From NCBI GenBank assembly GCA_944375905.1, contig CALWAS010000020.1, positions 1 through 64,000 on the forward strand: DNA of 64,000 nucleotides. The letters are read 5' to 3'. This DNA is from an uncultured Bacilli bacterium. Its GTDB lineage: Bacteria > Bacillota_I > Bacilli_A > RFN20 > CAG-826. The position numbers were made by a program, and so were the translations under genes. The notes under the pieces were generated by a model, which had not been told where the DNA came from, did no database searches, and saw only the letters and a list, made by a program, of their open reading frames with translations. Below are positions 8,212 through 57,481 of this stretch, one piece after another; position 1 is the first letter of the stretch, and every line of letters starts with the position of its first letter.

Positions 8212-8696
8212 TTGCCTTCCTTCTTCTGGGGAATGGGGACGAGCGGAAGCCCTTCCCCCGTTTTCTTTGCTAGGAAGCGGGCGATTTTCACGAAGTACGA
8301 ATATACCGCCTTGGCATCCCGATCCGGGTAGTCCTCGTAGCGGTCGCTCAAGTCGTTTCCCGGCGGATTGAATAGATAATCGGGAAGGCGAAAGGCCGGA
8401 AGGTCCATGAACTGGATCTGGGCGTGGCGGAAGCCCTGGGCCTCGCTGCCGACGCGTCCAGCCATGACGAGCTTCGAAACTTCCTCGAATCCGTCTCTAG
8501 CAAGGGAAAGGAATTCCTCTTGCCCTCTCTCGTCGAGCAGAAAGCTCGCGAAACGGTCTTCCTTATGGAGGAAGCGCTTCTTCCTGAGGACGCATTTTGC
8601 GTTCTCGATGTCGTAGGCATAGACGAAATGGACGGGATCGAGATCGCCTTCGTAAATGGAAGGCCCGACGAGATCGATTTGGACGAAGTATGGCAT
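8199..8696 (-). CDS. Hypothetical protein, 165 residues
   Basis: I do not recognise this family. The protein is soluble, acidic and aromatic-rich, with no membrane segment or signal peptide. It begins MPYFVQIDLVGPSIYEGD and has a lysine-containing tail. A -10 box (GATAAT) lies 8 nt upstream of the ATG and there is no Shine-Dalgarno sequence, which supports this start. It is divergent from the small membrane-protein gene at 8736 and converges, with 13 bases of overlap, on the GH31 gene. Codon use matches the neighbours, which supports a real gene. Confidence 0.65.
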   Translation of the reverse strand: MPYFVQIDLVGPSIYEGDLDPVHFVYAYDIENAKCVLRKKRFLHKEDRFASFLLDERGQEEFLSLARDGFEEVSKLVMAGRVGSEAQGFRHAQIQFMDLPAFRLPDYLFNPPGNDLSDRYEDYPDRDAKAVYSYFVKIARFLAKKTGEGLPLVPIPQKKEGNYSF

Positions 8697-8704
8697 CGCC
8701 CCCG

Positions 8705-8710
8705 ATTATC
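8705..8710 (-). promoter_or_regulatory. -10 box for the hypothetical gene ending at 8199
   Basis: GATAAT on the - strand, 8 nt before the ATG at 8696. It is back to back with the divergent -10 at 8724-8729. Between them lies a palindromic CGCGCAAATGCGCG. Confidence 0.55.
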
Positions 8711-8723
8711 GCGCAAATGCGCG

Positions 8724-8729
8724 TAATAT
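8724..8729 (+). promoter_or_regulatory. -10 box for the gene at 8736
   Basis: TAATAT followed by 6 nt and a GTG start; no Shine-Dalgarno sequence. The -35 zone of this promoter would overlap the -10 of the divergent gene. Confidence 0.5.
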
Positions 8730-8735
8730 AACAAC

Positions 8736-9292
8736 GTGGAAGAAAAGACATACATGGACAAAGCGCAAGAAAAAACGATCCGTCTATTGAAGGGCGACGA
8801 ATCTCTCCTCGTTGGGGAGCTCTCGGCCTTCGGCTACCGAGTTAAAAGCAAAAAGCCTGGCAAAAGCGCTTCCTTTGGAAGACTTTCGAATATACTTTCG
8901 TCCGCGAAGGAGGGCCGGTCGATCAGTTTATGGCCGAAAAGGAAAAAGAATTCGACCTCCTCTTCCATGAATGGTGCGACGAGTTCCTCATGAAGAAAAT
9001 GCCGCGCTATTTCTTTTTCGAGGTCTTTTCCCTCGCCCTCCTCATTGCCGGCATCGTCCTTTCCATCTTTTTTCTCGGTGGGGAGACATCCTACATAGGC
9101 ATGATTGGCCTTCTTCTCGTGGTTTTGAGCCTTGCCGTCAGCTTCATCCTCCTCTTCAAGTTCCAAAAGCGGATAAAGGGAATCCGGCTCATGGACGCCT
9201 GCGCGATTGCCGCGCGGGAGCACATGCTATCGCTCGCAATGGCCGCGAGGCTCGAAAAGGAAAACAAAGACAAGGGCCCATCGAAGGATTGA
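8736..9292 (+). pseudogene. Two-TM membrane protein gene with a frameshift
   Basis: The first 40 codons (GTG start; or ATG at 8754) run into a different frame at an A5 run (8850-8854). Re-reading one base there (-1) joins the upstream part, ending RVKSKK, to AWQKRFLWKTFEYTFVREGG and a downstream frame that is open to 9292. The joined protein is about 185 residues, with a soluble N-terminus, two hydrophobic segments (YFFFEVFSLALLIAGIVLS and IGMIGLLLVVLSLAVSFIL) and a basic tail. The site C AAA AAG is not a canonical slippery heptamer, so an indel or an assembly error in the A run is more likely than programmed frameshifting. The family is unknown. Confidence 0.6.
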
Positions 9293-9348
9293 GCCTTCTT
9301 TCTTTTTTATTCCCTAAACGGTCTCTTAGGTGTATATTTAACCGGCAC

Positions 9349-9439
9349 GGAGGCGTACCCAAGAGGCCGAAGGGGACGGTTTGCTAAACCGTTAGACCGG
9401 GTTACCGGTGCTCGGGTTCAAATCCCGACGCCTCCGCCA
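9349..9439 (+). tRNA. tRNA-Ser (GCT)
   Basis: Acceptor arms GGAGGCG/CGCCTCC pair, followed by G and an encoded CCA. The anticodon stem ACGGT/ACCGT encloses TTGCTAA, giving anticodon GCT. A long variable arm, typical of serine tRNA, and a T loop GGTTCAAATCC are present. It would read AGC/AGU. TATATT at 9333-9338 is a plausible -10 box. Confidence 0.96.
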
Positions 9440-9449
9440 GCGACAAATG

Positions 9450-9475
9450 CCGAAGGCTAGCCTTCGGTTTTTTTC
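9450..9475 (+). terminator. Intrinsic terminator after tRNA-Ser
   Basis: CCGAAGGC and GCCTTCGG form an 8-bp stem with a 2-nt loop, followed by a run of seven T. Confidence 0.92.
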
Positions 9476-9511
9476 TATTTCGCGGCGGTGGCTTCGCCTA
9501 TTCCCATAACA

Positions 9512-9517
9512 TAGAAT
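9512..9517 (+). promoter_or_regulatory. -10 box (TAGAAT) for the DUF3137 gene
   Basis: TAGAAT ends 6 nt before the ATG at 9524, with no Shine-Dalgarno sequence between; predicted leaderless start. Confidence 0.55.
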
Positions 9518-9523
9518 AAATCC

Positions 9524-10525
9524 ATGGCAAGGAAACCGAATGCCGCTTCCCCTTTCGAGGAGAGGCTCGCCTACATCGAGAAGGAAAGGAAAATCAGGCT
9601 TGCGAAGCTGATCGTTTTGATTGTCCTTGCCTCGCTTTTCGGGGCCGGAGGATTCGCCGGCATGGTCGTCTGCCTAATCGTTGAGTTTACGCCCTCTTGG
9701 GCAAGGTTCACCTTGCTCGCCGTCTCGATTGCCTCCTTTCTTCTCTTGACGATGATTACGGTCCTCAAGGCGGCTTCCATCCCTTCAAAGCATCGGGAGG
9801 ACTTCTTTGAACTATTCGAGGCGGAGGCATCGAAAGGGCTCTACGACGAACTTGAGTGCGCCTATCGAATGGCAGGGAAGGACATCATCGATGCCAACGC
9901 GGAGGGGCGTCGCACAAGCGGGAAAATGCCCGATGCGGAAGCCGGCCCTTATTTGCGCGGCAAAAAGGGCAATGTGTCCTTTTATTCCTTTCCTTTTCTC
10001 GCCAACGGCCTTTCGTTCAAGGAGAGGGGAGCCCTCTCGATCGAGGAGGAAACGCTCGATGGGCGGCCCATCAAATCCAGACGTCAGCCTGGAAAGGACC
10101 TGGTCGGTCGCTACTTCCTTTTCAAGGCTCAAGAGGAATTTCCGCTCGCGGTTCACATACGCGACCGGAGGTGGCTCCGAGCCGTTCGGCGGCCATTTGG
10201 CCACTGGGTGGAGTTTAGGGGCGAATCGACGCGCTTCAACGAGTGCTTTCGCGCCTCCTATAGCGGCGGGAGCAATGAAGATGCCTATTCTTTTTTGACG
10301 CCGTCTTTCATGAGCCGCCTTCTTCTTTTGGAAGACGAATACGGCGGGTATTTTTCCTTGCTGGTGGAGGGCCGCTCGGTGCACTGCCTTCTCGACCACT
10401 ACGATTCCGGGCTCAATCTTTCGCTTGCTAGGAAAATCGATCGCCGAACCGTCGATTATCTACGCGCCGAGCTTTCGCTCCCATCTAGGATCATCGAGGC
10501 ATTGGGACTAAAAGACGGCCGTTAA
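9524..10525 (+). CDS. DUF3137-like membrane protein
   Basis: 333 residues. A basic N-terminus is followed by two hydrophobic segments (about residues 25-50 and 60-82). A large soluble domain follows, with a stretch resembling DUF3137: FNECFRASYSGGSNEDAYSF, then LTPSFMSRLLLLE and a beta-rich end. In DUF3137 proteins the pattern F-x-V-x-S-D/N-x-E-x-x-x-I/F-L-T-P is typical, so the match is good, but the molecular function of the family is unknown. The 3' end overlaps the convergent permease gene by 18 bases. Confidence 0.7.
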   Translation: MARKPNAASPFEERLAYIEKERKIRLAKLIVLIVLASLFGAGGFAGMVVCLIVEFTPSWARFTLLAVSIASFLLLTMITVLKAASIPSKHREDFFELFEAEASKGLYDELECAYRMAGKDIIDANAEGRRTSGKMPDAEAGPYLRGKKGNVSFYSFPFLANGLSFKERGALSIEEETLDGRPIKSRRQPGKDLVGRYFLFKAQEEFPLAVHIRDRRWLRAVRRPFGHWVEFRGESTRFNECFRASYSGGSNEDAYSFLTPSFMSRLLLLEDEYGGYFSLLVEGRSVHCLLDHYDSGLNLSLARKIDRRTVDYLRAELSLPSRIIEALGLKDGR

Positions 10526-11914: not shown

Positions 11915-11917
11915 TTC

Positions 11918-12682: not shown

Positions 12683-12684
12683 TG

Positions 12685-13071: not shown

Positions 13072-13081
13072 ACTCAAGCGA

Positions 13082-13110
13082 ATTATAGCCAATGTCTATA
13101 CCGGGGTTAA
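13082..13110 (-). promoter_or_regulatory. Promoter of dtxR-xth-permease
   Basis: -10 TATAAT (13082-13087) and -35 TTAACC (13105-13110) are separated by 17 bp on the - strand. The -10 is 10 nt from the ATG. The -35 forms one arm of GGTTAA-N14-TTAACC (13105-13130), a possible repressor site. Confidence 0.65.
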
Positions 13111-13146
13111 TCAATACAGAATAGTTAACCATATGCAACTTTAGTA

Positions 13147-13175
13147 TTGACCCAACAATGGCCCGGGACTACCAT
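13147..13175 (+). promoter_or_regulatory. Promoter of the feo operon
   Basis: -35 TTGACC (13147-13152), 17-bp spacer, -10 TACCAT (13170-13175). The predicted start near 13182 is immediately before the dyad at 13184. Confidence 0.65.
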
Positions 13176-13183
13176 ACAACCGT

Positions 13184-13199: not shown

Positions 13200-13212
13200 T
13201 AAGGAGGCAACC

Positions 13213-13425: not shown

Positions 13426-13436
13426 AAGGATTTTGT

Positions 13437-13661: not shown

Positions 13662-13677
13662 AGTGGGGCAAAGGAAT

Positions 13678-21630: not shown

Positions 21631-21636
21631 ATTATA
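21631..21636 (-). promoter_or_regulatory. -10 box for the methyltransferase-like gene
   Basis: TATAAT on the - strand ends 6 nt before the GTG at 21624; predicted leaderless. Confidence 0.6.
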
Positions 21637-21652: not shown

Positions 21653-21658
21653 TACAAT
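21653..21658 (+). promoter_or_regulatory. -10 box for the Nudix gene
   Basis: TACAAT ends 7 nt before the ATG at 21666, without a Shine-Dalgarno sequence. Confidence 0.6.
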
Positions 21659-24721: not shown

Positions 24722-24727
24722 AATATA
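24722..24727 (-). promoter_or_regulatory. -10 box for the acyltransferase-ligase pair
   Basis: TATATT on the - strand, 7 nt before the GTG at 24714; no Shine-Dalgarno sequence. Confidence 0.55.
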
Positions 24728-25899: not shown

Positions 25900-25905
25900 A
25901 TTATA
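25900..25905 (-). promoter_or_regulatory. -10 box for the PAP2-like gene
   Basis: TATAAT on the - strand, 7 nt before the ATG at 25892; predicted leaderless. Confidence 0.6.
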
Positions 25906-25946: not shown

Positions 25947-25952
25947 TACAAT
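25947..25952 (+). promoter_or_regulatory. Extended -10 for the Sel1-ABC-ABC-Vsr operon
   Basis: TGCTACAAT (extended -10) ends 7 nt before ATG 25960, with no Shine-Dalgarno sequence. Confidence 0.65.
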
Positions 25953-31830: not shown

Positions 31831-31836
31831 GATAAT
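31831..31836 (+). promoter_or_regulatory. -10 box for the lipoprotein gene
   Basis: GATAAT ends 6 nt before ATG 31843; predicted leaderless start. Confidence 0.55.
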
Positions 31837-36157: not shown

Positions 36158-36921
36158 TTTCGCCCTCCATACAGGGAAAAGAACGCTTCTTCGACGCTTC
36201 CATAGCGGGCGACAAGCTCGCCTACGCTTTCCTCAAGGACAAGCTTTCCATCGATCAGGAAACCGACCCGATCGGCCAACTTGTCGACCAAGGAGAAAAT
36301 GTGGGTAGAAATCACGATGGCTTTCCCGCTGGACTTTTCCTCGCGGATGAAATCCTCGACATCCCGGCTTGCCACGATGTCGAGCCCGTTGGTCGGCTCG
36401 TCGTAAACGATGAGCTCGGGGTCGGCGACGACCGACATGGCAAGCGATGCCTTTTGCTTCATGCCGGTTGAGAGGTCCTTTATCCGGGTTTCGGAAAAGC
36501 CGTCGATGCCAAAGCGGGCAAACACTTCCCGCTTGCGCCTTTTGCTTTCCTCCTCGCTCAGCCCATATAGCGTCGCTAGGAAAGAGAACGTGTAAGACGG
36601 CGAGAAAAAGGGATCGAGTTTGAGCTCGGAGGTAAGGAAACCGATCTTACCTCGGAGCGAATCGCTTTCCTTGGTGAGGGTTTTGCCGTCGATTTTTATT
36701 TCGCCCGACGTTGGCGATATAAGCGACGACACCATCCGTAGGCAAGTCGTTTTCCCGGCTCCGTTCGGTCCTAGGAGGGCGTAGATCTCGCCTCTTTCGA
36801 CCTGAAAGGAGACATCGTCGACCGCCGTCAACTCGCGCGAGGAAATTCCCCGCTCCCTTGCCTGGCGGGAAGAAAGTGGGAACCGCTTCGTTAGGTGAAT
36901 CGCCTCAAGACAAACTTCCAT
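36154..36921 (-). CDS. ABC transporter ATPase, NatA-like
   Basis: 255 residues. Walker A LLGPNGAGKTT, signature LSTGMKQK, Walker B LIVYDEPTNGLD, and the H-loop ISTHIF are all present, so it is an active ATPase. It drives the permease encoded directly downstream. The closest architecture is NatA, the ATPase of a sodium efflux system. Its ATG is 6 nt after a TGCTAAAAT extended -10 and lacks a Shine-Dalgarno sequence. Confidence 0.9.
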   Translation of the reverse strand: MEVCLEAIHLTKRFPLSSRQARERGISSRELTAVDDVSFQVERGEIYALLGPNGAGKTTCLRMVSSLISPTSGEIKIDGKTLTKESDSLRGKIGFLTSELKLDPFFSPSYTFSFLATLYGLSEEESKRRKREVFARFGIDGFSETRIKDLSTGMKQKASLAMSVVADPELIVYDEPTNGLDIVASRDVEDFIREEKSSGKAIVISTHIFSLVDKLADRVGFLIDGKLVLEESVGELVARYGSVEEAFFSLYGGRK

Positions 36922-36927: not shown

Positions 36928-36933
36928 ATTTTA
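36928..36933 (-). promoter_or_regulatory. Extended -10 for natA-like gene
   Basis: TGCTAAAAT on the - strand, with TAAAAT ending 6 nt before the ATG at 36921. Confidence 0.6.
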
Positions 36934-37631: not shown

Positions 37632-37637
37632 ATTTTA
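37632..37637 (-). promoter_or_regulatory. -10 box for the HAD gene
   Basis: TAAAAT on the - strand, 7 nt before ATG 37624. Confidence 0.55.
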
Positions 37638-37667: not shown

Positions 37668-37673
37668 TAATAT
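37668..37673 (+). promoter_or_regulatory. -10 box for the CmpB-like gene
   Basis: TAATAT ends 6 nt before ATG 37680; no Shine-Dalgarno sequence. Confidence 0.55.
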
Positions 37674-39740: not shown

Positions 39741-39746
39741 ATTATC
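39741..39746 (-). promoter_or_regulatory. -10 box for rdgB
   Basis: GATAAT on the - strand, 6 nt before ATG 39734; predicted leaderless. Confidence 0.58.
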
Positions 39747-40097: not shown

Positions 40098-40952
40098 ATG
40101 GAAAAGGTATCGAATGGACATTACGAAGAGGAAAGGGCGCTTTACGGCCTTCGCGACGCGGAGGTCGAAAACTGCCTTTTCGCGGGTAAGGAAGACGGCG
40201 AGTCGCCATTGAAGGAATGCCGCGACATCGTGGTGAAGGGCTGTTCTTTCTCCCTTCGCTACCCGCTTTGGCACCTTCGGGGCGGCAAGATCGAGGACAT
40301 GACTTTGACCGACCTTGCCCGGGCCGGGCTTTGGTATGGGGAAGACGTCGAAATCGTTTCCTCGAATCTGCTTGCCGTCAAGTTCATGCGCGAGTGCAAA
40401 CGGATATCCTATCTCGGTTCGCGGATCGAGGGCGATGAATTCGGATGGAAGAGTTCGTCGATTCGCCTGAAGGACACGAGCGTCAAAAGCATGTACTCCT
40501 TCCTCGATAGCAAGAACATAGAGGCGAAAGGGATGGACCTCGACGGAAAGTACTCGCTTCAGTACATCGAGGATTCGCGCTTCGAGAACTGCTCGTTCAA
40601 GGGCCGCGACGCCTTCTGGCACGCCAAAAACGTCACGGTCGTCGATTCTTCCTTCGAGGGAGAATACCTTTCCTGGTACAGCGAGGGCCTTACCCTCATT
40701 CGCTGTCACATCAACTCGCACCAGCCGCTTTGCTACTGCAAGAACCTCCGCCTGATCGACTGCACCTTCGGCCCGGAAAGCGATCTGGCCCTCGAAAACA
40801 GCGAGGCGAACGGAACGATCAAAGGGCGCGTTCCCTCGATCAAGAACCTGGCCGCCGGCCGAATCGAAGTCGAAGAAGTGGGGGAACTCGTCCACGAGCC
40901 CGACGTTTACCAATTGAAAGGCGAAATCGTCGTCAAAACCCCTTCCAAATGA
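40098..40952 (+). CDS. DUF3737 right-handed beta-helix protein
   Basis: 284 residues. The sequence strongly matches DUF3737: EERALYGLRDAEVENCLFAG, KEDGESPLKECRDIVVKGCS, SLRYPLWHLRGGKIEDM and ARAGLWYGEDVEI. Repeats of about 20-22 residues with small, aromatic and Cys positions indicate a parallel beta-helix. Function is unknown. No signal peptide, so it is probably cytosolic. TAGGAT ends 8 nt before the ATG, a possible leaderless start; a TTGACA at 40071 is not spaced for it. Confidence 0.9.
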   Translation: MEKVSNGHYEEERALYGLRDAEVENCLFAGKEDGESPLKECRDIVVKGCSFSLRYPLWHLRGGKIEDMTLTDLARAGLWYGEDVEIVSSNLLAVKFMRECKRISYLGSRIEGDEFGWKSSSIRLKDTSVKSMYSFLDSKNIEAKGMDLDGKYSLQYIEDSRFENCSFKGRDAFWHAKNVTVVDSSFEGEYLSWYSEGLTLIRCHINSHQPLCYCKNLRLIDCTFGPESDLALENSEANGTIKGRVPSIKNLAAGRIEVEEVGELVHEPDVYQLKGEIVVKTPSK

Positions 40953-43189: not shown

Positions 43190-43195
43190 ATTATA
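43190..43195 (-). promoter_or_regulatory. -10 box for CPBP gene
   Basis: TATAAT on the - strand, 7 nt before ATG 43182. Confidence 0.6.
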
Positions 43196-43252: not shown

Positions 43253-43258
43253 TACAAT
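43253..43258 (+). promoter_or_regulatory. -10 box for the giant-protein operon
   Basis: TACAAT ends 7 nt before ATG 43266, no Shine-Dalgarno sequence. The upstream DNA has short GCGTATGCGT-type repeats. Confidence 0.55.
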
Positions 43259-43265: not shown

Positions 43266-46200
43266 ATGCAAAGGCTCTTAACGATTTTCGACGCGATCCC
43301 GGTCGATCCCTCTTTTATCGCTCAAGTGACGAACTACGTGACGCTTTCATTGTTCATCGCCTGCCTTGTTTGGCTTGTGTGTGCATTCTTGCGGGGGCTT
43401 GCCAGGGGATGGCGGTACGGAACCTACCGCCTCGTGATGTTCCTTCTACTCATTGCCATTGCCTTGCTTACCCTTCGGCCGATCGTCAATGCCATCGGAA
43501 ATCTCGATCTCACCGTCTTTGGCATCGGAACGAGCGTTCAACTGCCGACATTCGTGGTTTCGATCAACGGGCAGTCGGTTGCCATTGCGACGGAAGGGAC
43601 TACCGCCTTCGAAATCGTAAGCGGATACATAGCGAACCTGATGAAGGCCACCGGCAGCGATTTGCCTCCGGACGTTCTTTCGGCCTATGCGCTGACTTTC
43701 GCGACGAGCCTCGTCTCGCTCGTGCTCGTCTTGGTAGACGCTTTCCTGATCAGCATCTTCGGGACTTTCTTCGTTTTCATCCTTTGGCACCTTGCCTTCA
43801 AGCGCTTCATTCCGAAGGCAACGAGGAAGGCGTCCTATAAGAAAGGCAAGGTCTGGGGCGGATTCTCCTCCCTTGTCGTGAGCGCTTGCTGCATAAGCCT
43901 TTTCTGGTTCCCGCTTACAAGCGTCGTCAACTCGCTGAACGGGGCATGGCAATCGGGCCAGCTTAGCGAAGAGGACAAGACGACCCTCCATACCATCGAC
44001 GACCCGACCTACCAGGCCATTTCCTCCGTTTTGGATGCCTACGACAACTCGGTCTTTGCCGAAGCCTTCTTCAACTGGACCCGCAACAACGAAGGAAAGA
44101 CCCTCGACGTTTCTCTCATGGAGTTCCTTACCGGAGCCGAGATGAGCCTAGGCGACAACGAGAAGGTTTCCGTTTCCTTCCTCAACGAACTCACGACGTT
44201 CGCCAAGGCATTTACCATCGTCATCCAGGGCGGCGTCCTATCCCAAGGGACGTTCGATTCCGCCCGGATCCCGCTCCTTTTGACCACTTCCATGGCCCCC
44301 GAATTGCTGAGGACGCTAGGCTCTAGCCAGCTCGTGACCGGCATAATGCCCTACGGTCTCACCGTCCTCGAGAACATGGATGGGGTAGCCGAATACGTCA
44401 AAGTCGGCACCGGCATCGATTTCTCCGGCAACTACGAGCTCACCTTCAACGAGCTTGCCGACATCTACGACTCGGTCCTCGACTCGACGCTTCTCGATAA
44501 TCTCGTTGATCCCTCGACGGGCGAACTCGGTTCCAGCTCCGCCGTGATGGAAGATGTCCTGAGCGAAGGCAACAAAGCGACGGTAACCGGGGTGTTCGAT
44601 GCCCTCGACGGAGAAAACCTCCACATATTCGACGCCGTCATCGAAAGCGCCTTGACCATTCAGGCATACAAGGACATTACGAGCGGGAAGGCCGCTTCCG
44701 AAAGCGAGCTCACGGTTAGCGACTTCCTTCCCTACGTTACCCTTGACGAATTCACGCCCGTGGATGGAAAGCCGACGACGATCCCCGAGTCCTATCGGGA
44801 CATCAAGTGGGGAAGCATTTTCGCGGACTTCTTTGCCTCGACCGTGAACCTGGTCAACGTCTCCGAGGAACTCTACCTCGCCGTCTGCAATGCGATGCCG
44901 AGCTGGAACGGCGAGCCGTCGCCTTCTTATCAATTCGACGCCATCCTCGAGCCGATACTCGACGATTTCGAGGCCGCGAAGGAAGCGCTCGTCGGAAACG
45001 GGGAGCCGGATGAGGGAGAAGAAGCGGTGACTCCGCTTCTAGGAACGGAATTCATCCTCAATGCGTCCCCGAAGATCGTCAAAATGCTAGCCTCGAGCGT
45101 CAATTCGTCGCTTAACCTTTCGGGCGAGAAAGCCATCGATCTTTCGAACGTTGCCGCGACTTTCCGCTCCGACCAAAGCACGATCCTCCCCGAGTTCAGC
45201 GCCCTTCTCGACATCGTCGGCGACTTCGCGGGGACGGAGGAGGGAAAGGAATTCCTCCTTCATCTCGACGCGATGCCCGGCATCTATTTTGCCCCTGACG
45301 GCAGTTTCGTCGGAATCGACGAGGGGCTTGTCGAGGGACTGCAGTCCGGCCTGCGCGGCCTCGACGCTTCCCTCATCGCCTCCGAGGCGCTTCCGCCCAT
45401 CTTCGAAAATCTCCTTGCCGGGAGCGATTCCATTCTCGGCGATTTAGGCGAGGGGCTCGTCTTCGACTTCGACGTCGACGATGTCGGGTCCGAGCTTGCC
45501 ACGATTCTCGGGGCCGTCTCTTCCTCGCAGGGGCTCATTTCCTACCTCCTGACCCTCGGGGACGTTTCCTCGCTCAAGGGACAGGCCCTCGAAAGCGCCG
45601 TCGACACCATTTCCTACTACCAGGACGAACTCGTGGACTTCCTCCAAGCCGTCGCCGGCAGCCAAGTCCTCAATCCGGTGGTCGACGGAAAGCGGAATTC
45701 AAACATCGCAACCTTGCTTGGCAAAGTCTTCGAAGCGGTGGGGATCGACGATGTCGAAAGCCTTTCCTCGACCCTTGGCTCGCTTTCGGAAAGCGAGACC
45801 CAAGCCGAGATGGAGAGCTTCGTCAATGTTCTCATCGACGTAATAGATAGCGGCATCGTGCCTTCGATATCGAGCGGCAGCGTGTCATTGACATCGCTTG
45901 AAAGCGTCTCTTTCGAGGAGATGTTCTCCTCTTTTGACGAGAGCATCATTTTCTCGAGCTGCTTCGGCAGCGTCATCGACTCCCTGCTTAGCGAAAACGC
46001 GACCTTCAAGGACATGATCGACAGCGGGCTTTCCTTCGAGAACGTCACTTCCTGGAGGGAAGAGGGCCGCAATCTCGACATCCTGGTCCGCTCCATCAAC
46101 TTGCTCGGCGCCAAAGGCCTTCTCGACGGCGGGTCGATCGATTTCTTCTCAAGCGATCCCGAAGCCGTCAAGAACGTGCTTCAAGTCCTTTCCTCCTCTT

Positions 46201-49200
46201 CCCTCTTCGTGGAGAAGACGGATGGCGGATACTATTACCGTTTCCCGTCCTTCCTAGGCGACCTTATGGGCCGCTACCTCGATGACGCAAGCGACGCTTC
46301 CTCCTTCTTCGTCACCCCCGAGGGGAGCGGAAAGGACGCTCTCATCGCCGATATCGAGTCGACCGCCCTTTCCTCTGATGGCAGCGACGTGCTCAGCTCG
46401 GACGAAGTCATCGCGGCCAAGGAACTCTGGAACGGCGAGTCGGCCGTCCTTTCGGATGTCATCCGCTCGATTTTAGCTTCCGGCGGCATGGAGTCGTTTG
46501 GGGACGGCAAGATCGACCTTGCGAGCGTTTCGGCCGCTTCCATCGACGCCTTGTTCCACGATTCGGCCTCCCTAAAAATATTCGGTCGGGTCCTCAACTA
46601 TTCAATCTACAAGGCCATTGCGGGCGAAGTCTCTTCTGCCTTTGCCGATGCATCCGACAGTCCCAACCTTGCCGCTTTCTGGTTCGATTCGCTTTCCTCT
46701 TACGAGGAAGCGGCCGTCCCCGGCGGCATCTTCGATGAAGAAGCCGACGCCATGTCGACTTTCCTTTATGCCGTCCTCGATCCCGAGACCGGGATCGTGG
46801 GGGAGAGCGGCGGGGAATCCCGCTTGGATTTCGACAGCATCGACCTAACGGAAATTTCCACCTACTACCTGATTCGCCCCCTTCTCGACGGCCTTTCCTC
46901 GTCCCGCCTCTTCAATACGCTCGGCAACAAGGAGTACACGACCTACGAATACATGCTTTCCTCGATTCTCGAGGGAACCCTCTTCGACAAGGGAGAAGGC
47001 CTTGTGAAAGTCGCCTCGGTCCGCGTATCGCTAGGAAGCGACCCGACCTTCGAGGCCCTCAAGTCGGCCTGGGAAAAGGAAAACGATGCCATCGTCAATA
47101 CGCTAGATGCCCTCGGGGAAGCCGACGTCGATGTCTCGACCGTCCAAAACGACCCGATGGCTTTCTTCGAAGGCGGATCGAGCTATGAGGGCCAGCGGGC
47201 CAAACTCGAGAACCTTCTCGTCGCGGCCGGCGATTCCAAAATCGTCCGCCCGGCCATGGTCGACATGGTCGAAAAGGCGGCCGACGAACTCAAGGAAGGC
47301 ACCGAAGTCGATGCCGATTATCTCCTTTCCGCGAGCCAAGCCGATTACGACGTGGAGGTGCGGCGCCTTTCCTTCGTCTTGATGTACGGCGCGATGATCG
47401 GCACCATCGACACTTCCGACATCGACGTCCTTTTCGAGAACCCGGCGGCCGATGGCTTCTTCCGCGAGGCGGCGACTTCCCGGGTCCTGAACCCCGAGCC
47501 GGGCGCGGACGGCACTTACGGCTTCTTTGAGAAACTCGTTCGCGACGTCCTTCTCGAGAGCGATTATTACCTCGCCGGGGGCGAAGCCGCCGGAGACTTA
47601 TCCGAGGAAAGGAGGGTTGACGCCGTCCTTGCTTCCATCGACGGGGCCGGGGACCGTTATGTCGCCTGGCCAAGCGAAGCCGACTCGCTTTCCGAGGCGA
47701 TGGGCGCGATCCGCGACAATGGCGTTTCCCTTTCGGACGCGACCGACCTTGCGTCTTTCTTCAACGGGGAAGGAAGTGCCGACGGGCCGGACGAAGCCGG
47801 CCGCGACAAGCTTTACGCGATTCTTTCTTCCGTCAACGATTCCGGCCTCCTTTACCCAGGGCTTGGCCTCCGCTTCTCGGCGGCGATCGGGGATGTCGGA
47901 TCGGCGAGCGTCGATCTCGGGGAAGCCAATTTCTACTACCCCGGCAAGAGCGGCGAAGGCTTGCTAAGCGCTCGCTATTCCTCTTCCGAGCTTCTTCGTT
48001 TGAGCGATGTCGTCATGTATGCCCAGGACCTTAGCGAGGTCGACTTCAACGACATAGCGACAATCGACGGATCCTCGGCCGGGAACCTTCTCGCGACGAT
48101 GGCGAATTCGAGGATCTTCAACTCGCTTTCCTCCGAGGCCGCGGAAGGAAGCGCGACTTCCTTCGTTTCGATCATGAAGGAAATCCTTTCCTCGCCCACG
48201 CTCGCTCCCTATTACTTCAGCTCCAATAGCCCAAAGGACGAAGAACTTGGCTACCTCGATGCCGAGGACAAGGCCGCGAAGGCCGTCTCGGCCCTCTTCC
48301 CCGAGGTCAAAGACGATTCGGGAAAGGAAAGCAACGATACCGCTTCCCTCAACGGGGAAAGCGAGAGCAGCCTTGCCTCGATCATCGATTACATTGCCGA
48401 GAATGACCTTTCCTCGGTCCTCGACGACCTTCAGGGCGGAGCCCTTCCTTCGAGCGAGGCCGCCGACGGCAAAGCATCCTCCCTCGACATGCTCACGGAG
48501 CTTTTGAAGCGGATCGACGGCAACGACATCCTCTTCGACATCGTGCCTAATGCCATTGCCTCGATTACCGACGGCGGCGATTCGGCCTCGATTAACATCG
48601 ACGGCATCGACCTTGCAAGAAGCGATCCCTTCTTCCCGTATCGAAATGGGGAAGGAGCCATCGATTCAGCCAATTTCACAAAGCGGTATGGCTCCGAGGA
48701 AATTGGGAGCGTCATGGGAATCGCCGATGCTTTGAATAAGAACCAGGCGATCTTCGGAGCGATGGGAAGCACGGGCTCGGGCATCGGGATGAATGAGATT
48801 TCCGAGCTTCGGAACCTTCTCGTTTCCCTTTCGGATTCCGATGTCTTCAACGGCTATGTCGGCAAAGTTACCGCCGGCGTTTCGATCGGCGGGGTCGATG
48901 TGCCGGAAGCACTCAACGTCTTCGACGAGACCCTATTCTACATAATGGTGGATAGCGGCCTTTATCTCAGGGCATATGACCCGGTAATCGACGCCGAAAC
49001 GGGCTTCGTTTCGGCCGTGGACAAACTCAAGAATGCAATCCTTGGCCTTTCGAGAGACGAGGAACGCTCCGAGGTAGACCATTTGATCGGCAACGATAAA
49101 CTCGACGAAGGGCTGCTTGTGACCGCTCTCAACGAATTGGGAACGGTCGAAGGAGTGGGAGGTGAGCGGCGCCTCACCGTCGACTTCGCTAGCGGCAGCG

Positions 49201-51116
49201 GAACCAACGTCATGGATTTCGCTTCCATCGCTCCCGATTCGCTCAATCGCCTTTTCCGCGCCATCAACAAAGTCGCGATCGCGGATGGCGTTTTGAGGGG
49301 TGGCGTCGAGGTGCTCCTCGGCGATACGATCAACCTTTCGATGTGGAGCCAAATCGAAACCAACCGGCGCCTCGCCAATGGGGAAGAATCCCTTCGCATC
49401 GCCAAGATAAGCTACATCGGCGAGGGAGAGGCACCGGTTCTCTATTACACCAACGGCGCCGGCAAGACGCCGGTCGTGGCGGAAGATGGAGTCTATAGCT
49501 TCCTGCGTAACCGCGATATCGACGATGGGGAAATCGACGTCGATTCCTCGTTGATCGGACCGACCGACGTCTACATCAAGGATGGCGACGCCTACGTTTC
49601 CATCTTCGTCTACGATTCTGACGGGTCTTCGGATTGGCTTTCCGACAACTTCCTCATCTCCTACGACGCCTCGACGGCCCACCTTCTCACACGGGCAGAT
49701 TACGATGCCTATACCATCGATCTCGTAACCGATTTCCTTTCTTCCTGCCTCTGGGGCGAGGAAAGCGAGTCCTATTCCAGGATCGATAACGCCACCGACT
49801 TCTTGATGCCGAGAGATGGCGGGAGTTCCTCTTCTTTATACGAAATAATCCGCTTCCTCCTTGCCAAGGGAAGCCTTTATGGCGGGGCCTTCGACGAAGA
49901 GGGAACCTTCCTCGGAGCCGATGGGGCGTCGCTCGAAGAGGCCGCGACGCCGATATCCTACACGAGCGGGACCGCCCTCATGCGCAACTTCGTCAAGACC
50001 CTCGGGACGAGTTCAACCGACTTCCCGGTCAATGTCGACCTTGCCAAAGTCTTCGTCTATGCTAGGGGCGAAGATGCGGTGGGGAACGAGCGTTCCCTCC
50101 TCAAGGCGATCTATTCGTCGGTGGCCGCCGAGGCGAATTACGGCGGCAAAGACCGCGAAGCTGTTTATCCGTGGGGGATTTCCTTCCTCGAAGACAATCT
50201 CGGCGACGTCATCTTGACCTTGGCCGCGATGGACATCGGCGAAATCGATGGCTCGAGTCTAGGCGTCATCAACTCGATTCCTTCTTCGTCAGACGGCATC
50301 GTCCTTCTCGAAGCCTATAGCAAGCATGCCTACTTTGCAGTAGCCGACAACTCGGTCTCAAAGATCAACGATTTGATTTCGAGCGCCAATGGCTTGCTCC
50401 TCGGCGTCGCGTCGGGGTCGGAGGCGGAAGCCTCGCTCTCCGCCTCTTTGGCCAACAACGTCATAACTTCGCTTTTCGCGAGGCTCGTGTCTGCCTCGAA
50501 CGAGGTCTTTGCCACGGAGTCTGGCGAGGCGATCCGCCCGCTTACCATGGGCTACCTCTTCGCAAAGGAAAGCGCCTCGAGCGTATATGGCAAGGTCTCG
50601 TCGGTAACGAGCTCGGAAGGCGTCCTCGAAAGCGCCACCGTCGGCTCGATGGGCAAGCGGGCTGCCGCCTTCGATGCCAACATGGGGCTCATGGCGATGG
50701 AGAACGACGGCCTTTCCTTCAATAGCGGCAGGTCCCTTTACGCTAGCCTCTTCGAGACTCTTGCCGCCTTTGCCTTCACCGATTCGAACTTCGGGGCGAA
50801 CGATGCATTCGCGAAGGGATTCACGAGCAATCATCGCGAGCTTCTTTCCACCCTGGCCAATTGCGAGGCAAGCGAGCGCGGGAAGGCGGCGGCCAGCACT
50901 CTCCTCGAAGCCTATTTCTACGATGTCGTCATCATGCGCGGCTTGCTCAACGTGCCGCTAAAAGGCTATGTTTCGGTCATGTCCTTCCCGGAAATCGCCT
51001 TGAGCGTCCCTTCGCTCTCGACGCGGTATGCGGAAAGGCATGATATCAGCGCGACTTCCTATTTCGGATCCAACGGCTTCCTCTCCCTTTTGGAACTCCC
51101 GGCGGGGGAACTTTGA
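43266..51116 (+). CDS. Giant membrane-anchored repeat protein, 2616 residues
   Basis: The N-terminal 215 residues have about four hydrophobic helices (about 25-45, 47-70, 137-165, 187-210), reminiscent of CvpA-like anchors. Basic loops (RGLARGWRYGTYR; HLAFKRFIPKATRKASYKKG) lie after the first and third, so by the positive-inside rule the remaining 2400 residues are outside. That part is Ser/Asp/Glu-rich with a recurring motif: a hydrophobic helix, Ser or Asp, then a turn, as in LSSSRLFNTLG, MANSRIFNSL, AATSRVLNPEP, AAGDSKIVRPA, VAGSQVLNPVV and LSDSDVFNGYV, spaced about 80-180 residues. No catalytic motif is recognised. It is coupled to yigZ and pepP downstream. Confidence 0.8.
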   Translation: MQRLLTIFDAIPVDPSFIAQVTNYVTLSLFIACLVWLVCAFLRGLARGWRYGTYRLVMFLLLIAIALLTLRPIVNAIGNLDLTVFGIGTSVQLPTFVVSINGQSVAIATEGTTAFEIVSGYIANLMKATGSDLPPDVLSAYALTFATSLVSLVLVLVDAFLISIFGTFFVFILWHLAFKRFIPKATRKASYKKGKVWGGFSSLVVSACCISLFWFPLTSVVNSLNGAWQSGQLSEEDKTTLHTIDDPTYQAISSVLDAYDNSVFAEAFFNWTRNNEGKTLDVSLMEFLTGAEMSLGDNEKVSVSFLNELTTFAKAFTIVIQGGVLSQGTFDSARIPLLLTTSMAPELLRTLGSSQLVTGIMPYGLTVLENMDGVAEYVKVGTGIDFSGNYELTFNELADIYDSVLDSTLLDNLVDPSTGELGSSSAVMEDVLSEGNKATVTGVFDALDGENLHIFDAVIESALTIQAYKDITSGKAASESELTVSDFLPYVTLDEFTPVDGKPTTIPESYRDIKWGSIFADFFASTVNLVNVSEELYLAVCNAMPSWNGEPSPSYQFDAILEPILDDFEAAKEALVGNGEPDEGEEAVTPLLGTEFILNASPKIVKMLASSVNSSLNLSGEKAIDLSNVAATFRSDQSTILPEFSALLDIVGDFAGTEEGKEFLLHLDAMPGIYFAPDGSFVGIDEGLVEGLQSGLRGLDASLIASEALPPIFENLLAGSDSILGDLGEGLVFDFDVDDVGSELATILGAVSSSQGLISYLLTLGDVSSLKGQALESAVDTISYYQDELVDFLQAVAGSQVLNPVVDGKRNSNIATLLGKVFEAVGIDDVESLSSTLGSLSESETQAEMESFVNVLIDVIDSGIVPSISSGSVSLTSLESVSFEEMFSSFDESIIFSSCFGSVIDSLLSENATFKDMIDSGLSFENVTSWREEGRNLDILVRSINLLGAKGLLDGGSIDFFSSDPEAVKNVLQVLSSSSLFVEKTDGGYYYRFPSFLGDLMGRYLDDASDASSFFVTPEGSGKDALIADIESTALSSDGSDVLSSDEVIAAKELWNGESAVLSDVIRSILASGGMESFGDGKIDLASVSAASIDALFHDSASLKIFGRVLNYSIYKAIAGEVSSAFADASDSPNLAAFWFDSLSSYEEAAVPGGIFDEEADAMSTFLYAVLDPETGIVGESGGESRLDFDSIDLTEISTYYLIRPLLDGLSSSRLFNTLGNKEYTTYEYMLSSILEGTLFDKGEGLVKVASVRVSLGSDPTFEALKSAWEKENDAIVNTLDALGEADVDVSTVQNDPMAFFEGGSSYEGQRAKLENLLVAAGDSKIVRPAMVDMVEKAADELKEGTEVDADYLLSASQADYDVEVRRLSFVLMYGAMIGTIDTSDIDVLFENPAADGFFREAATSRVLNPEPGADGTYGFFEKLVRDVLLESDYYLAGGEAAGDLSEERRVDAVLASIDGAGDRYVAWPSEADSLSEAMGAIRDNGVSLSDATDLASFFNGEGSADGPDEAGRDKLYAILSSVNDSGLLYPGLGLRFSAAIGDVGSASVDLGEANFYYPGKSGEGLLSARYSSSELLRLSDVVMYAQDLSEVDFNDIATIDGSSAGNLLATMANSRIFNSLSSEAAEGSATSFVSIMKEILSSPTLAPYYFSSNSPKDEELGYLDAEDKAAKAVSALFPEVKDDSGKESNDTASLNGESESSLASIIDYIAENDLSSVLDDLQGGALPSSEAADGKASSLDMLTELLKRIDGNDILFDIVPNAIASITDGGDSASINIDGIDLARSDPFFPYRNGEGAIDSANFTKRYGSEEIGSVMGIADALNKNQAIFGAMGSTGSGIGMNEISELRNLLVSLSDSDVFNGYVGKVTAGVSIGGVDVPEALNVFDETLFYIMVDSGLYLRAYDPVIDAETGFVSAVDKLKNAILGLSRDEERSEVDHLIGNDKLDEGLLVTALNELGTVEGVGGERRLTVDFASGSGTNVMDFASIAPDSLNRLFRAINKVAIADGVLRGGVEVLLGDTINLSMWSQIETNRRLANGEESLRIAKISYIGEGEAPVLYYTNGAGKTPVVAEDGVYSFLRNRDIDDGEIDVDSSLIGPTDVYIKDGDAYVSIFVYDSDGSSDWLSDNFLISYDASTAHLLTRADYDAYTIDLVTDFLSSCLWGEESESYSRIDNATDFLMPRDGGSSSSLYEIIRFLLAKGSLYGGAFDEEGTFLGADGASLEEAATPISYTSGTALMRNFVKTLGTSSTDFPVNVDLAKVFVYARGEDAVGNERSLLKAIYSSVAAEANYGGKDREAVYPWGISFLEDNLGDVILTLAAMDIGEIDGSSLGVINSIPSSSDGIVLLEAYSKHAYFAVADNSVSKINDLISSANGLLLGVASGSEAEASLSASLANNVITSLFARLVSASNEVFATESGEAIRPLTMGYLFAKESASSVYGKVSSVTSSEGVLESATVGSMGKRAAAFDANMGLMAMENDGLSFNSGRSLYASLFETLAAFAFTDSNFGANDAFAKGFTSNHRELLSTLANCEASERGKAAASTLLEAYFYDVVIMRGLLNVPLKGYVSVMSFPEIALSVPSLSTRYAERHDISATSYFGSNGFLSLLELPAGEL

Positions 51117-53016: not shown

Positions 53017-53026
53017 GCTTCCGAAT

Positions 53027-53048
53027 AAGCACCCGACCGGGTGCTTTT
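53027..53048 (+). terminator. Terminator after pepP
   Basis: GCACCC-GACC-GGGTGC followed by TTTT. Confidence 0.88.
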
Positions 53049-53131
53049 CCTTTTGGAGGCGCGAATCCCGGAAAGCGTGATTGTCCCTTGCTTTTCGTCT
53101 ATAATGGCCTCAAAGGAAGAAAAAACCGCCA

Positions 53132-54073: not shown

Positions 54074-54078
54074 TGATG

Positions 54079-54096
54079 CGCCCTCCGGGGCGTTTT
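54079..54096 (+). terminator. Terminator before glpK
   Basis: CGCCC-TCCG-GGGCG followed by TTTT; the T tail merges with the TTGCTT -35 box of glpK. Confidence 0.75.
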
Positions 54097-54123
54097 GCTT
54101 ATATGAAAGAGAAAGGCGATAAT
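54095..54123 (+). promoter_or_regulatory. Promoter of glpK
   Basis: -35 TTGCTT (54095-54100), exactly 17 bp, -10 GATAAT (54118-54123), then 6 nt to the ATG. It is the clearest complete leaderless promoter in the window. Confidence 0.72.
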
Positions 54124-54129
54124 GAAAAA

Positions 54130-55611
54130 ATGAAGAAATACGTGCTTTCCCTCGACCAAGGGACGACTTCGACGAGGGCCCTTCTCATCGACCGCTCGGG
54201 GCGGGCTTGCTACAAGGCGAGCCGCGAGCTCGAATGCCTTTATCCCCGTCCGGGCGAGGTCGAACTCGACGCCGAGCGGATCTGGGTATCGACGGTCGAT
54301 GTCATCAACGAGGTCCTGATCCTTTCGGGGGCAAGTTGGGAAGACATCGATTCGATTGGGATAACCAACCAGCGCGAGACGACCATCGTCTACGAGAAAA
54401 AGACCGGCCGCCCAATCCACAATGCGATCGTTTGGCAGTCGAAGGCCTCGGCCGAGATCTGCGAGCGCTACCGTCCTTACGAAAAAGAAATCAGGGCCAA
54501 GACCGGCTTGCTCATCAATCCCTACTTCTCGGCCAGCAAGATCCGCTATGTCCTCGAAAAGGTGCCCGGGGCCGAGGAAAGGGCCCGGCGGGGAGAGCTC
54601 GCCTTCGGCACCGTAGACAGCTTCCTCGTCTACAAGATGACGAAGGGAAAGACTTTCGCGACCGATGCGACGAATGCTTCGCGGACGATGCTTTACAACA
54701 TCGAATCGCTTTCCTACGACCGGGAATTGCTCAAGCTTTTCGACATCGATCCCTCGCTTCTTCCGGAAGTTAGGCCTTCCGACGACGACTATGGGGAAGC
54801 CTCTTTCTTCGATTGCCGCGTCCACATCCACGGCATCCTCGGCGACCAGCAAAGCGCCCTTTTCGGGCAGGGTTGCCTCGTCGAAGGGGAAAGCAAGAAC
54901 ACCTACGGGACCGGCTGCTTCATGCTCATGAACACCGGAAGCCGCCCCGTCTATTCGAAGAAGGGGCTCCTCACGACCGTTGCCGCCCTTCGCAGGGGCA
55001 AGGCGAGCTACGCCCTCGAGGGTTCGGTCCTCGTCGGCGGGGCGGTGGTGCAGTGGCTGCGGGACGAGATGAACTGGTTCAAGCGCTCCTCCGACGTCGA
55101 GGAATACGCGATGCGGCGTCCCGATACCGGCGGCGTCTACGTCGTCCCGGCCTTCGTCGGGCTCGGCACCCCCTATTGGGACGACGAGGCGCGCGGGGCC
55201 ATCTTCGGCCTGACCCGGGGAAGCGACCGCCATAACATCACCCGGGCCGCCCTCTATTCGATCGCCTATCAGTCCAAGGACGTGATCGAGCTCATGAAGG
55301 AAGAGGCAGGGCTCGACCTCCCGACCCTCAAGGTCGACGGCGGGGCTTCTTCCGATGCCCTCCTCATGCAGTTCCAGGCCGACATCCTAAGAAGCGAGAT
55401 CCTCGTTCCCGAGCAGATCGAGACGACCGCCCTCGGGGCAGGCTATCTTTCGGGCCTCGCGACCGGCTTCTACGAGAGCGAGGAGGCGCTTTTCTCCAAA
55501 AGGAGCTATGCCCGCCGCTATACCCCGTTGATCGGCAAAGAGGAGGCCGACCGCCTCTACGAAGGCTGGAAGGAGGCCGTGAAGGCCACCAGGGCCTACA
55601 AGCCGAGGTAG
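54130..55611 (+). CDS. glpK: Glycerol kinase
   Basis: 493 residues. Phosphorylates glycerol to glycerol 3-phosphate with ATP. FGGY-kinase signatures: LSLDQGTTSTRALLID, ITNQRETTIVYEKKTGRPIH with NAIVWQ, GTVDSFLVYKM, GDQQSALFGQG, GTGCFMLMNTG and VDGGASSDALLMQFQADIL. Length is typical. ATG 54130 is fixed by the promoter; the longer open frame upstream is a shadow. No glpF or glpO is adjacent. DUF5677 gene follows 4 nt later. Confidence 0.96.
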   Translation: MKKYVLSLDQGTTSTRALLIDRSGRACYKASRELECLYPRPGEVELDAERIWVSTVDVINEVLILSGASWEDIDSIGITNQRETTIVYEKKTGRPIHNAIVWQSKASAEICERYRPYEKEIRAKTGLLINPYFSASKIRYVLEKVPGAEERARRGELAFGTVDSFLVYKMTKGKTFATDATNASRTMLYNIESLSYDRELLKLFDIDPSLLPEVRPSDDDYGEASFFDCRVHIHGILGDQQSALFGQGCLVEGESKNTYGTGCFMLMNTGSRPVYSKKGLLTTVAALRRGKASYALEGSVLVGGAVVQWLRDEMNWFKRSSDVEEYAMRRPDTGGVYVVPAFVGLGTPYWDDEARGAIFGLTRGSDRHNITRAALYSIAYQSKDVIELMKEEAGLDLPTLKVDGGASSDALLMQFQADILRSEILVPEQIETTALGAGYLSGLATGFYESEEALFSKRSYARRYTPLIGKEEADRLYEGWKEAVKATRAYKPR

Positions 55612-55615
55612 CGAG

Positions 55616-56743
55616 ATGGAACGCAAATTCACCTTCGAGACTTTTTCCGCCTTCCTCGGAGCCGCCCTTCCTTCCTACAAAGGGGACAAGGAGCTCCTTT
55701 ACGAGCTTTCCGAGGCGGCTTTTTCCTCGATTCCGGCCATATCGAGCCAATCGCCCATCCTTTCGCGCTTCGGCTATAGCCCGGCCCACATCATCTTCTA
55801 CATCGTGGGCGAGCACACTTTCTATCTCGCGACCCATCCCGACAAAAAGGAAAGCGACCTCAAGGGCGACGAGGACTATGCCCGCTTCATCGCTTCCTTT
55901 GCCCTCGACAAGTACTACACCAACGAGCACCTTTCCTATAGCGAAGGGTCGCTTCTATCGCCCTACATGCCCGAGGTGTCGACGATTTCCCTTTACCTCA
56001 ATTTCGTCCTAGGGACCCTCAGGCGCTTCAAGAAGGGGGACCCGAAGCAAACCCTCTTCGTCGACATCCTTTCGAAGGGTCTAACGATGGCCAAATGCAT
56101 CGTTTCCCTCCTCGTCGGCGGCTACGAAACCGAGGCATTTTCGACGTGGAGGACCCTCCACGAGAACGAATGCATCCTCCTCTCCCTTCTTTCGGCCGGG
56201 GAAAAAGCCGTTCAGTCCTACATCCGCCACATGCATTATGCCTTGGCCTTCCGCGGGGCCCTTCCTAGCAAGGAGGAAACCGACGCGACCTTCCTCGAGA
56301 TCAAGGAGGGGATGAAGGCACACGGATTGAAGAGCAAGGACATGAAGCGCTACATCGAGTACGGGTGGCTTTACGAAGTTCCGAATGCCGCCGGGGAGGA
56401 AGGGTTCAAGCTCAACTTCCGCGACGGGGTCGAGAAGGCCGCCGGCCTCCATTCCTATAGCCGGGTCTATGAAATGAGCAGCGAGATCGCCCATAGCTCC
56501 CCCCTTCTCATCTACTCCCGGAAGTCGTATTTCACCCTCATCGGCATCATCAACCTCTACGAGAGCTTCTTTCGCCTCGAGAAAGTGTTCTCCTCGATGT
56601 ACCTCGGGACGGCGGGCGAGGAGGAGAAAAGACGCTACGAGAATCTCCGCCATGCCTACTATGGGGAGCTAATCGCCTCCTACGGGCGCCTCAAGAAGCG
56701 CTTTTCGAGCCTTTCGAAAAAAGAAAAGAAGGAAGGCGATTAG
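55616..56743 (+). CDS. DUF5677-like protein
   Basis: 375 residues, soluble, largely helical. The middle (LLVGGYETEAFSTWRTLHEN, then SYIRHMHYAL) and YSRVYEMSSEIAHSSPLL fit the DUF5677 pattern of a paired helix core with Arg/Glu and a late His. Molecular function of the family is unknown. It begins 4 nt after the glpK stop, so it is cotranscribed. Confidence 0.65.
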   Translation: MERKFTFETFSAFLGAALPSYKGDKELLYELSEAAFSSIPAISSQSPILSRFGYSPAHIIFYIVGEHTFYLATHPDKKESDLKGDEDYARFIASFALDKYYTNEHLSYSEGSLLSPYMPEVSTISLYLNFVLGTLRRFKKGDPKQTLFVDILSKGLTMAKCIVSLLVGGYETEAFSTWRTLHENECILLSLLSAGEKAVQSYIRHMHYALAFRGALPSKEETDATFLEIKEGMKAHGLKSKDMKRYIEYGWLYEVPNAAGEEGFKLNFRDGVEKAAGLHSYSRVYEMSSEIAHSSPLLIYSRKSYFTLIGIINLYESFFRLEKVFSSMYLGTAGEEEKRRYENLRHAYYGELIASYGRLKKRFSSLSKKEKKEGD

Positions 56744-56762
56744 CTTTCCTTCCTGCGGACGG

Positions 56763-56787
56763 GCCGCCTAGCAAACGGGCGGCTTTT
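56763..56787 (+). terminator. Terminator after the glpK-DUF5677 unit
   Basis: GCCGCC and GGCGGC flank an 8-9-nt loop and are followed by TTTT; it overlaps the 3' end of the convergent gene. Confidence 0.75.
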
Positions 56788-57481
56788 CCTTTTTCGGGGC
56801 GATGAGGTTCTTGATGGCGGCGAAAAGATAGGAAGCGGCAACGAGGGCAGTGAGGAGGATGAGGATGTAATAGGCCGTGCCGATATTGCCGTTTTCAATC
56901 TCGAACCAGCCTAGCTTCTCGAAGTCCATGAAATAGTAGGGAAACTTGCCCGTTCCCGCCTCGAACTTAATTCCAAGCGGATAGCAGACGCAGTAGACGA
57001 AAAGGAGGTAGAGCAGGGGAAGCAGGCATCCGAAAAGGGGGTAGCCTTTCTTGAGGATGAGCACCCGGTCGAAGAAAAGGGCATCGATAAGCGTGAGGAC
57101 GGGAAGGGCCAGATGGACCGAGACATTGGCAAAGCTTTCGGCGTACCCCGGGCCGGAGGTCGGTAAGAGCAGGGCGAAGAAAACGCCCATCGTAAGCAGA
57201 ACGGCGATGGCCGAGGCGAAGCGGTAAAGGCGCAGGGGAAAAAGCTTGCATTCGCGTCCCGTGGCGATGGCCACGATGTCGATGACCATGAAGAGAAAAG
57301 CCGATAGCATGGCCGCGAGCGCGGAAATGATCGTGAAGTAGAGGAAGAGATAGTTGCCATTCATGAAGCTTCCCGCGTTCTTCAGGTTGGCGACGATTCC
57401 AAGAAAGCCGACCGCGATGATCGCCCCTTTGAGGAAAAGGCCGCAATACAGTAGTGGCTTCGAGGCTTTGCGCGTTTCCAT
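56768..57481 (-). CDS. Pr6Pr/FAR-17a-like membrane protein
   Basis: 237 residues with six to seven hydrophobic segments. NYLFLYFTIISAL, VHLALPVLTLIDALFFDR and FPYYFMDFEKLGWF fit the Pr6Pr/AIG1-like family, whose eukaryotic members hydrolyse fatty acid esters of hydroxy fatty acids. The bacterial role is unknown. It starts 8 nt after TAAGAT with a TTGAGG -35 at 17 bp. Confidence 0.7.
   Translation of the reverse strand: METRKASKPLLYCGLFLKGAIIAVGFLGIVANLKNAGSFMNGNYLFLYFTIISALAAMLSAFLFMVIDIVAIATGRECKLFPLRLYRFASAIAVLLTMGVFFALLLPTSGPGYAESFANVSVHLALPVLTLIDALFFDRVLILKKGYPLFGCLLPLLYLLFVYCVCYPLGIKFEAGTGKFPYYFMDFEKLGWFEIENGNIGTAYYILILLTALVAASYLFAAIKNLIAPKKEKPPVC

Follow-up and report, generated by a model that had tools for sequence, protein, structure and literature searches.

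The window is a 64,000-nt stretch of contig 20 of a 1.22-Mb assembly (27 contigs, 97% complete). At 145-6003, it encodes a 1952-aa protein with DUF4011, AAA helicase domains, and a C-terminal MTES_1575 nuclease domain, an architecture that we take to resemble that of large defence-type helicase-nucleases. Other genes include rdgB, glpK, and those for an ABC transporter ATPase, a HAD hydrolase, and a PAP2 protein, and many of them have a TATAAT-like hexamer directly before the start codon (Table 1). Neither Pfam (E up to 1e-5) nor NCBIfam (E up to 0.001) yields a match for the 2616-aa open reading frame at 43266-51116, whose start is of the leaderless type.

The GlpK protein of the window is nearest to those of uncultured Firmicutes and Bacilli genomes, and three of the seven nearest name the ruminant stomach in their titles. 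One of these seven, JALCSW (G062), appears in the genome table of PMC9302107 under order RFN20, family CAG-826, genus UBA4951. From GlpK similarity to this genome (66%), the window probably belongs to RFN20/CAG-826.

Candidate -10 boxes at start codons in the window

The first-pass annotation listed 17 start codons, and a weaker one at 40098, as having a TATAAT-type box 6-8 nt upstream. A strict box is defined here as a hexamer with at most one mismatch to TATAAT, and the spacer is the number of nucleotides between box and start codon. Strict boxes at 6-8 nt are present at 14 of the 18 sites, and the remaining four have hexamers with two mismatches. On both strands of the window, 21 of 2698 ATG/GTG triplets have a strict box at 6-8 nt, and the 14 strict sites are necessarily among these 21. 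Comparison of 14/18 with this background gives a binomial p of about 9e-27, uncorrected for the sites having been chosen beforehand in that annotation.

Table 1. Hexamers preceding the listed start codons. Strict boxes have at most one mismatch to TATAAT; weak boxes have two.
Box	Position	Strand	Class	Start codon	Spacer (nt)	Gene or remark
GATAAT	8705..8710	-	strict	ATG 8696	8	
TAATAT	8724..8729	+	weak	GTG 8736	6	
TAGAAT	9512..9517	+	strict	ATG 9524	6	DUF3137 protein; downstream of tRNA-Ser 9349-9439
TATAAT	21631..21636	-	strict	GTG 21624	6	weak aminopropyltransferase-like match, below cut-off
TACAAT	21653..21658	+	strict	ATG 21666	7	Nudix-like, below cut-offs
TATATT	24722..24727	-	strict	GTG 24714	7	HGSNAT_cat match
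TATAAT	25900..25905	-	strict	ATG 25892	7	PAP2 protein
TACAAT	25947..25952	+	strict	ATG 25960	7	Sel1-repeat match; divergent from 25892
GATAAT	31831..31836	+	strict	ATG 31843	6	
TAAAAT	36928..36933	-	strict	ATG 36921	6	ABC transporter ATPase; gene call starts at 36831
TAAAAT	37632..37637	-	strict	ATG 37624	7	HAD hydrolase
TAATAT	37668..37673	+	weak	ATG 37680	6	ABC_trans_CmpB match
GATAAT	39741..39746	-	strict	ATG 39734	6	rdgB
GATAAA	40087..40092	+	weak	ATG 40098	5	DUF3737; SD-like 4-mer present
TATAAT	43190..43195	-	strict	ATG 43182	7	weak CPBP-type match, below cut-off
TACAAT	43253..43258	+	strict	ATG 43266	7	2616-aa protein; divergent from 43182
GATAAT	54118..54123	+	strict	ATG 54130	6	glpK; gene call is in-frame ATG 54103
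TAAGAT	57490..57495	-	weak	ATG 57481	8	TTGAGG 17 bp upstream

The gene at 8736 is doubtful because an open reading frame in another frame, 8930-9292, was called in its stead, and the gene at 40098 is probably not leaderless. The start of glpK is ambiguous from the window alone since the gene caller chose another in-frame ATG. A -35 element exactly 17 bp upstream had been described for glpK and for the gene at 57481. The latter holds in part, with two mismatches; the glpK hexamer, TTGCTT, has three and does not rise above background. Since the box fills the SD position, the lack of a Shine-Dalgarno (SD) sequence at the listed starts adds no independent evidence. Divergent first genes with a box this close are found in gaps down to 41 bp. 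In the divergent pair 21624/21666, both boxes lie inside one gap of that length, so there is no space for leaders.

Distance from box to start codon across the genome

The genome-scale sample is composed of the window and 20 further stretches (420,446 bases, 34% of the genome, 52% GC). Genes were called by coding potential alone, and upstream signals were ignored. A gene counts as first-type if its upstream neighbour lies either on the opposite strand, separated by 30 nt or more, or on the same strand at a distance of 50 nt or more.

The box-to-start distance plot that the first-pass annotation had proposed as a check has a peak, located at 6-9 nt. A strict box at this distance, here called a near box, precedes 33 of 163 first-type genes vs 4 of 125 operon-internal genes (p=1e-5), so that the signal is concentrated in the first genes of transcription units. 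The start codons of the 33 genes are ATG (28) and GTG (5), with no TTG. Leaderless genes typically start with ATG or GTG. With the looser pattern TANNNT, the excess at 6-9 nt amounts to about 34 of 163 first-type genes (21%) and 4 of 125 internal genes. A TANNNT-like signal about 10-12 bp upstream that exceeds shuffled expectation, the mark used by Zheng et al. 2011, is present.

TATAAT-like words could occur everywhere in A/T-rich intergenic DNA, and the peak would then be due to chance. Scattered matches are indeed frequent in AT-rich relatives of the order, but these relatives have no excess at 6-9 nt. The sample itself is 52% GC, and shuffling of the 25 upstream bases (500 runs) gave a mean of 3.9 matches and a maximum of 11, vs the 33 observed. 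Chance has a negligible probability of accounting for the peak.

The boxes could also be A/T-rich translation-initiation elements of the Bacteroidota non-SD type, located in leadered mRNAs whose transcription starts further upstream. Other phyla do have such signals ahead of their start codons, as described in portions of PMC5397173 and PMC9581028. The signal observed here is, however, TATAAT-specific. TATAAT (33 matches) outscores all 19 hexamers permuted from the same letters, and the runner-up is the shifted ATAATT with 18. The signal is also nearly limited to first-type genes, and another upstream -10 box is seldom found in near-box genes. Strict boxes form a second, broader cluster at 23-38 nt, where the near-box genes have 3 matches in 33 genes vs 35 in 130 for the other first-type genes. 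The weak -35 and the TG described below are common to near boxes and leadered promoters. This combination makes A/T-rich translation elements an improbable explanation.

The promoter marks were counted at 49 near and 60 far boxes. A -35 hexamer with at most two mismatches accompanies 11 of the 49 near boxes (p=0.011) and 15 of the 60 far boxes (p=0.0003), with a background of about 10%; the -35 is weak at both alike. A TG one base upstream of the box is present in 9/49 (p=0.003) and 9/60 (p=0.012), respectively, vs an assumed 1/16. Near boxes therefore bear the same marks as leadered promoters. Where the spacer is 6 nt, 24 of 27 genes of this genome and its relatives have a pyrimidine immediately before the codon vs 186 of 302 other first-type genes; this spacer was chosen after the data were seen, and all spacers of 6-9 nt give 51/68.

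Some near boxes adjoin other features. Those at L008:9477, L016:16390, and window 24714 lie, as judged by eye, directly behind hairpin-like G+C palindromes, two of which have T-rich tails. This adjacency suggests tight packing of terminator and promoter. In the region L011:2267-6627, the near box TATAAG lies 8 nt before a 203-aa gene directly upstream of what appears to be rpoB (identified from its position and from translated starts), so the rpoBC unit may have a leaderless start.

The share of near-box genes was estimated with a two-motif mixture model. The fractions from a single-motif EM are void because the motif drifted to SD in both the genome's own set and the genus set. The two-motif model places a -10 box at 5-10 nt in 47.6 of 163 first-type genes (29%) and at 20-47 nt in 62.9 (39%). 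For genes that the model assigns to either class at better than even odds, the mean SD probability is 0.67 with the far box (n=60) and 0.18 with the near box (n=49). SD-like 4-mers are found in 81 of 125 internal genes, 61 of 130 other first-type genes, and 1 of 33 near-box genes, the last being forced by the overlap of the box with the SD position. Divergently oriented first genes have a strict near box in 22 of 72 cases. Leaderless starts had been proposed as the default for first genes, and these shares contradict that proposal. The genome has a mixed system in which predicted leaderless genes stand beside SD-leadered ones. The window is enriched for near boxes (12/25 vs 21/138 in the rest of the sample, p=6e-4), as expected since the pattern was first spotted there, and the trait is overstated when the window is read alone.

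Codon adaptation, used as a stand-in for expression level, has medians of 0.428 for near-box genes (n=48), 0.495 for far-box genes with SD (n=35), and 0.445 for genes with SD only (n=39). Near-box genes do not differ significantly from the two SD groups pooled (p=0.23). Outside the window there are 21 strict near-box genes; of the 20 compared with NCBIfam (E up to 1e-40), 8 have a match, as do 8 of the 10 compared from the 21 confidently leadered genes. This is only a hint, with lengths unmatched, that near-box genes belong less often to well-known families.

Near boxes in relatives and sister families

Orthologs were compared between the genome's own sample and about 423 kb of the relative G061, which gave 84 pairs with usable starts. 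In all six first-type near-box pairs, the box is kept beside the ATG although much of the flanking sequence has diverged. Five pairs have identical spacers, and in one of these the ATG of G061 is shifted inward by one codon; the spacer of the sixth pair is 1 nt longer. The 18 first-type pairs in which the own gene has an SD show an SD in 12 G061 genes, a near box in 1, and neither in 5. Operon-internal near-box genes with a usable ortholog keep the box in one of three cases.

The rdgB gene permits a wider comparison, which takes in 31 of the 32 same-genus genomes where it was matched and every one of the 19 from other families; a match is absent in 5 of 37 same-genus and 5 of 24 other-family genomes. 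Sequences L155, L204, L205, L207, and L209-L218 of the order set entered this comparison only. Among the 31 same-genus copies, own included, 17 carry a box at 6-10 nt, 8 an SD, and 6 neither. In other families, the box is found in 2 of 19 (G042 and G044), an SD in 15, and neither in 2. Without L127, one of the six with neither and cut by a contig end, Fisher's test gives p=0.002 (17/30 vs 2/19); the rows are not independent events, since L118, L121, and L122 are near-identical upstream. For glpK, inspection by eye finds a box 6-9 nt before the conserved start in all five relatives at 63-83% GlpK identity (L022-L026). SD-like sequences take its place in L027 and L028 (54-56% identity, by eye).

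These comparisons bear on whether the starts were mis-called, with the true codons elsewhere and ordinary short leaders before them. The gene caller is imperfect: on 50 kb of E. coli, it recovered 41 of 46 annotated genes and placed 27 of those 41 starts correctly. Start errors would, however, blur the 6-9 nt peak rather than sharpen it. When alternative starts are allowed, 38 of 163 first-type genes have the box vs a permuted-control mean of 7.7. For rdgB and glpK, conservation of the protein fixes the start codon, and many relatives still have the box there. Mis-called starts are highly improbable as the source of the pattern.

The peak is also observed in ten pooled relatives, of which six are assigned to the same genus and four (G061, G062, G063, and G065) are presumed relatives pooled by GlpK similarity. 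Their 207 first-type genes have 35 strict boxes at 6-9 nt vs 17 in 14 flanking positions (p=5e-12), and the two-motif model gives 27% with a near box. G064 is outside the pool and has boxes at 6-9 nt in 2 of 13 first-type and 1 of 8 internal genes. Sequences L164 and L219 overlap by 4 kb, and some genes may count twice.

Thirteen genomes of six other families of the order (f2, f3, f4, f5, f6, and f8) have no peak, with 14 boxes at 6-9 nt vs 88 in 14 flanking positions, and the two-motif model assigns a near box to 0% of their 169 genes. Power is lowered here because most of these genomes are AT-rich and few genes were called in the AT-rich sister families (e.g., 6 genes in 20 kb of G045). We infer that an excess near 29% of the 169 genes should still be visible. 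Among single genomes of the order, G044 (5/18 first-type genes) and G060 (3/19) have boxes at 6-9 nt; both are AT-rich, and their background is similar.

Erysipelothrix has 7 matches in 41 genes (p=0.17; model 6%). Brevibacillus has none at 6-9 nt in 43 genes; its model value of 0% is weak, as the motif failed to converge on TATAAT. The E. coli stretch has 0/21 at 6-9 nt. In the positive control, plasmid 1 of Deinococcus deserti, 9 of the 26 annotated first-type genes have TANNNT with a spacer of exactly 6 nt.

Predicted leaderless initiation and comparison with known systems

The near boxes are probably ordinary housekeeping-type promoters predicted to give leaderless mRNA, with a probability of roughly 0.88 based on sequence comparison. 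The first-pass annotation had RNA polymerase starting on or next to the start codon, and this agrees with the placement of the boxes, their promoter marks, and the position kept between relatives. With the -10 box adjoining the gene, the transcript would begin with the first base of the codon or at most about 3 nt upstream of it, according to the established geometry of -10 promoters, as stated in the part seen of PMC3160421. Where the spacer is 9 nt, a leader a few nucleotides long would remain. An mRNA without a leader would have its 5'-terminal AUG or GUG bound directly by the ribosome, a step that rests on known leaderless-mRNA biology (PMC10783764, in part). About three in ten first-type genes would be leaderless. 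In the same genome, SD initiation would serve operon-internal genes and many first genes with a -10 box at 20-47 nt.

The translation apparatus was compared as well. The 16S 3' end carries an intact anti-SD (CCTCC) in the relatives G062 and G063, so it is not lost there; no 16S was found in the own assembly. A possible ribosomal correlate is the absence of protein bS21. All 24 genomes, own included, have bS21, and rpsA has no match at the curated cut-off in any of the 24. Neither bS21 nor rpsA sets the lineage apart from the sister families, so no cause on the translation side is put forward. The 11 same-genus genomes each have 1-2 S1-domain matches, compared with at least 3 in 11 of 13 other-family genomes.

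It is fairly likely that one RFN20 lineage, probably around CAG-826/UBA4951, replaced the short SD leaders of a large share of its first genes with leaderless promoters, that the sister families kept SD leaders, and that rdgB and glpK differ in state between relatives. Leaderless initiation would here be a lineage-restricted trait among small-genome Bacilli whose relatives use SD leaders for the same genes. Gain and loss would become testable gene by gene, and rdgB and glpK, if the reading is true, would be a natural series for the evolution of leaderless initiation. Tools that expect an SD may mis-annotate start codons in such genomes.

Discussion of leaderless initiation usually centres on Actinobacteria, Deinococcus, and Archaea, and leaderless promoters themselves are well known. 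As far as the open-licence literature goes, the RFN20 lineage and the contrast with its sister families are new. No leaderless work on RFN20 or CAG-826 was found in the open-licence PMC literature, where leaderless mRNA and Erysipelotrich together gave only work on anti-SD types. Mycobacteria reportedly have a similar mixture of SD and leaderless initiation, with ATG or GTG at the 5' end of the leaderless mRNAs. They are an unrelated phylum, in which the trait is said to have been mapped experimentally.

A section of PMC9581028 cites GeneMarkS-2 predictions of leaderless use for 21.6% of bacterial species. Leaderless mRNA as the default for first genes had been called notable in a Firmicute-like genome. 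Leaderless genes as such are not unheard of there, since an extract of Zheng et al. 2011 (PMC3160421) predicts them in Lactobacillales and Mycoplasma; the clades named in that extract are other lineages than RFN20. Mycoplasma gallisepticum also has a small genome, TATAAT-like promoters, and short 5' UTRs with a mode near 15 nt, according to part of PMC4245973. Nine of its transcripts appeared leaderless in that account, whereas 33 genes are predicted here, by the strict rule, in one third of the genome.

The closest parallel in form is the '-10 adjacent to ORF' promoter of Deinococcus-Thermus, described in the portion seen of PMC12340547. There, the -10 hexamer likewise lies directly before the codon, at 6 nt in the D. 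deserti control. The same portion gives about 30% of ORFs on average in Deinococcus-Thermus vs 29% of first-type genes here, with different denominators. A supplementary figure mentioned there also scans other phyla and may include related genomes. D. deserti differs in belonging to another phylum, in its response to the strict TATAAT rule (1 of 26 first-type genes on plasmid 1 vs 33/163 here), and in its spacing, which is looser in the present genome (6-9 nt).
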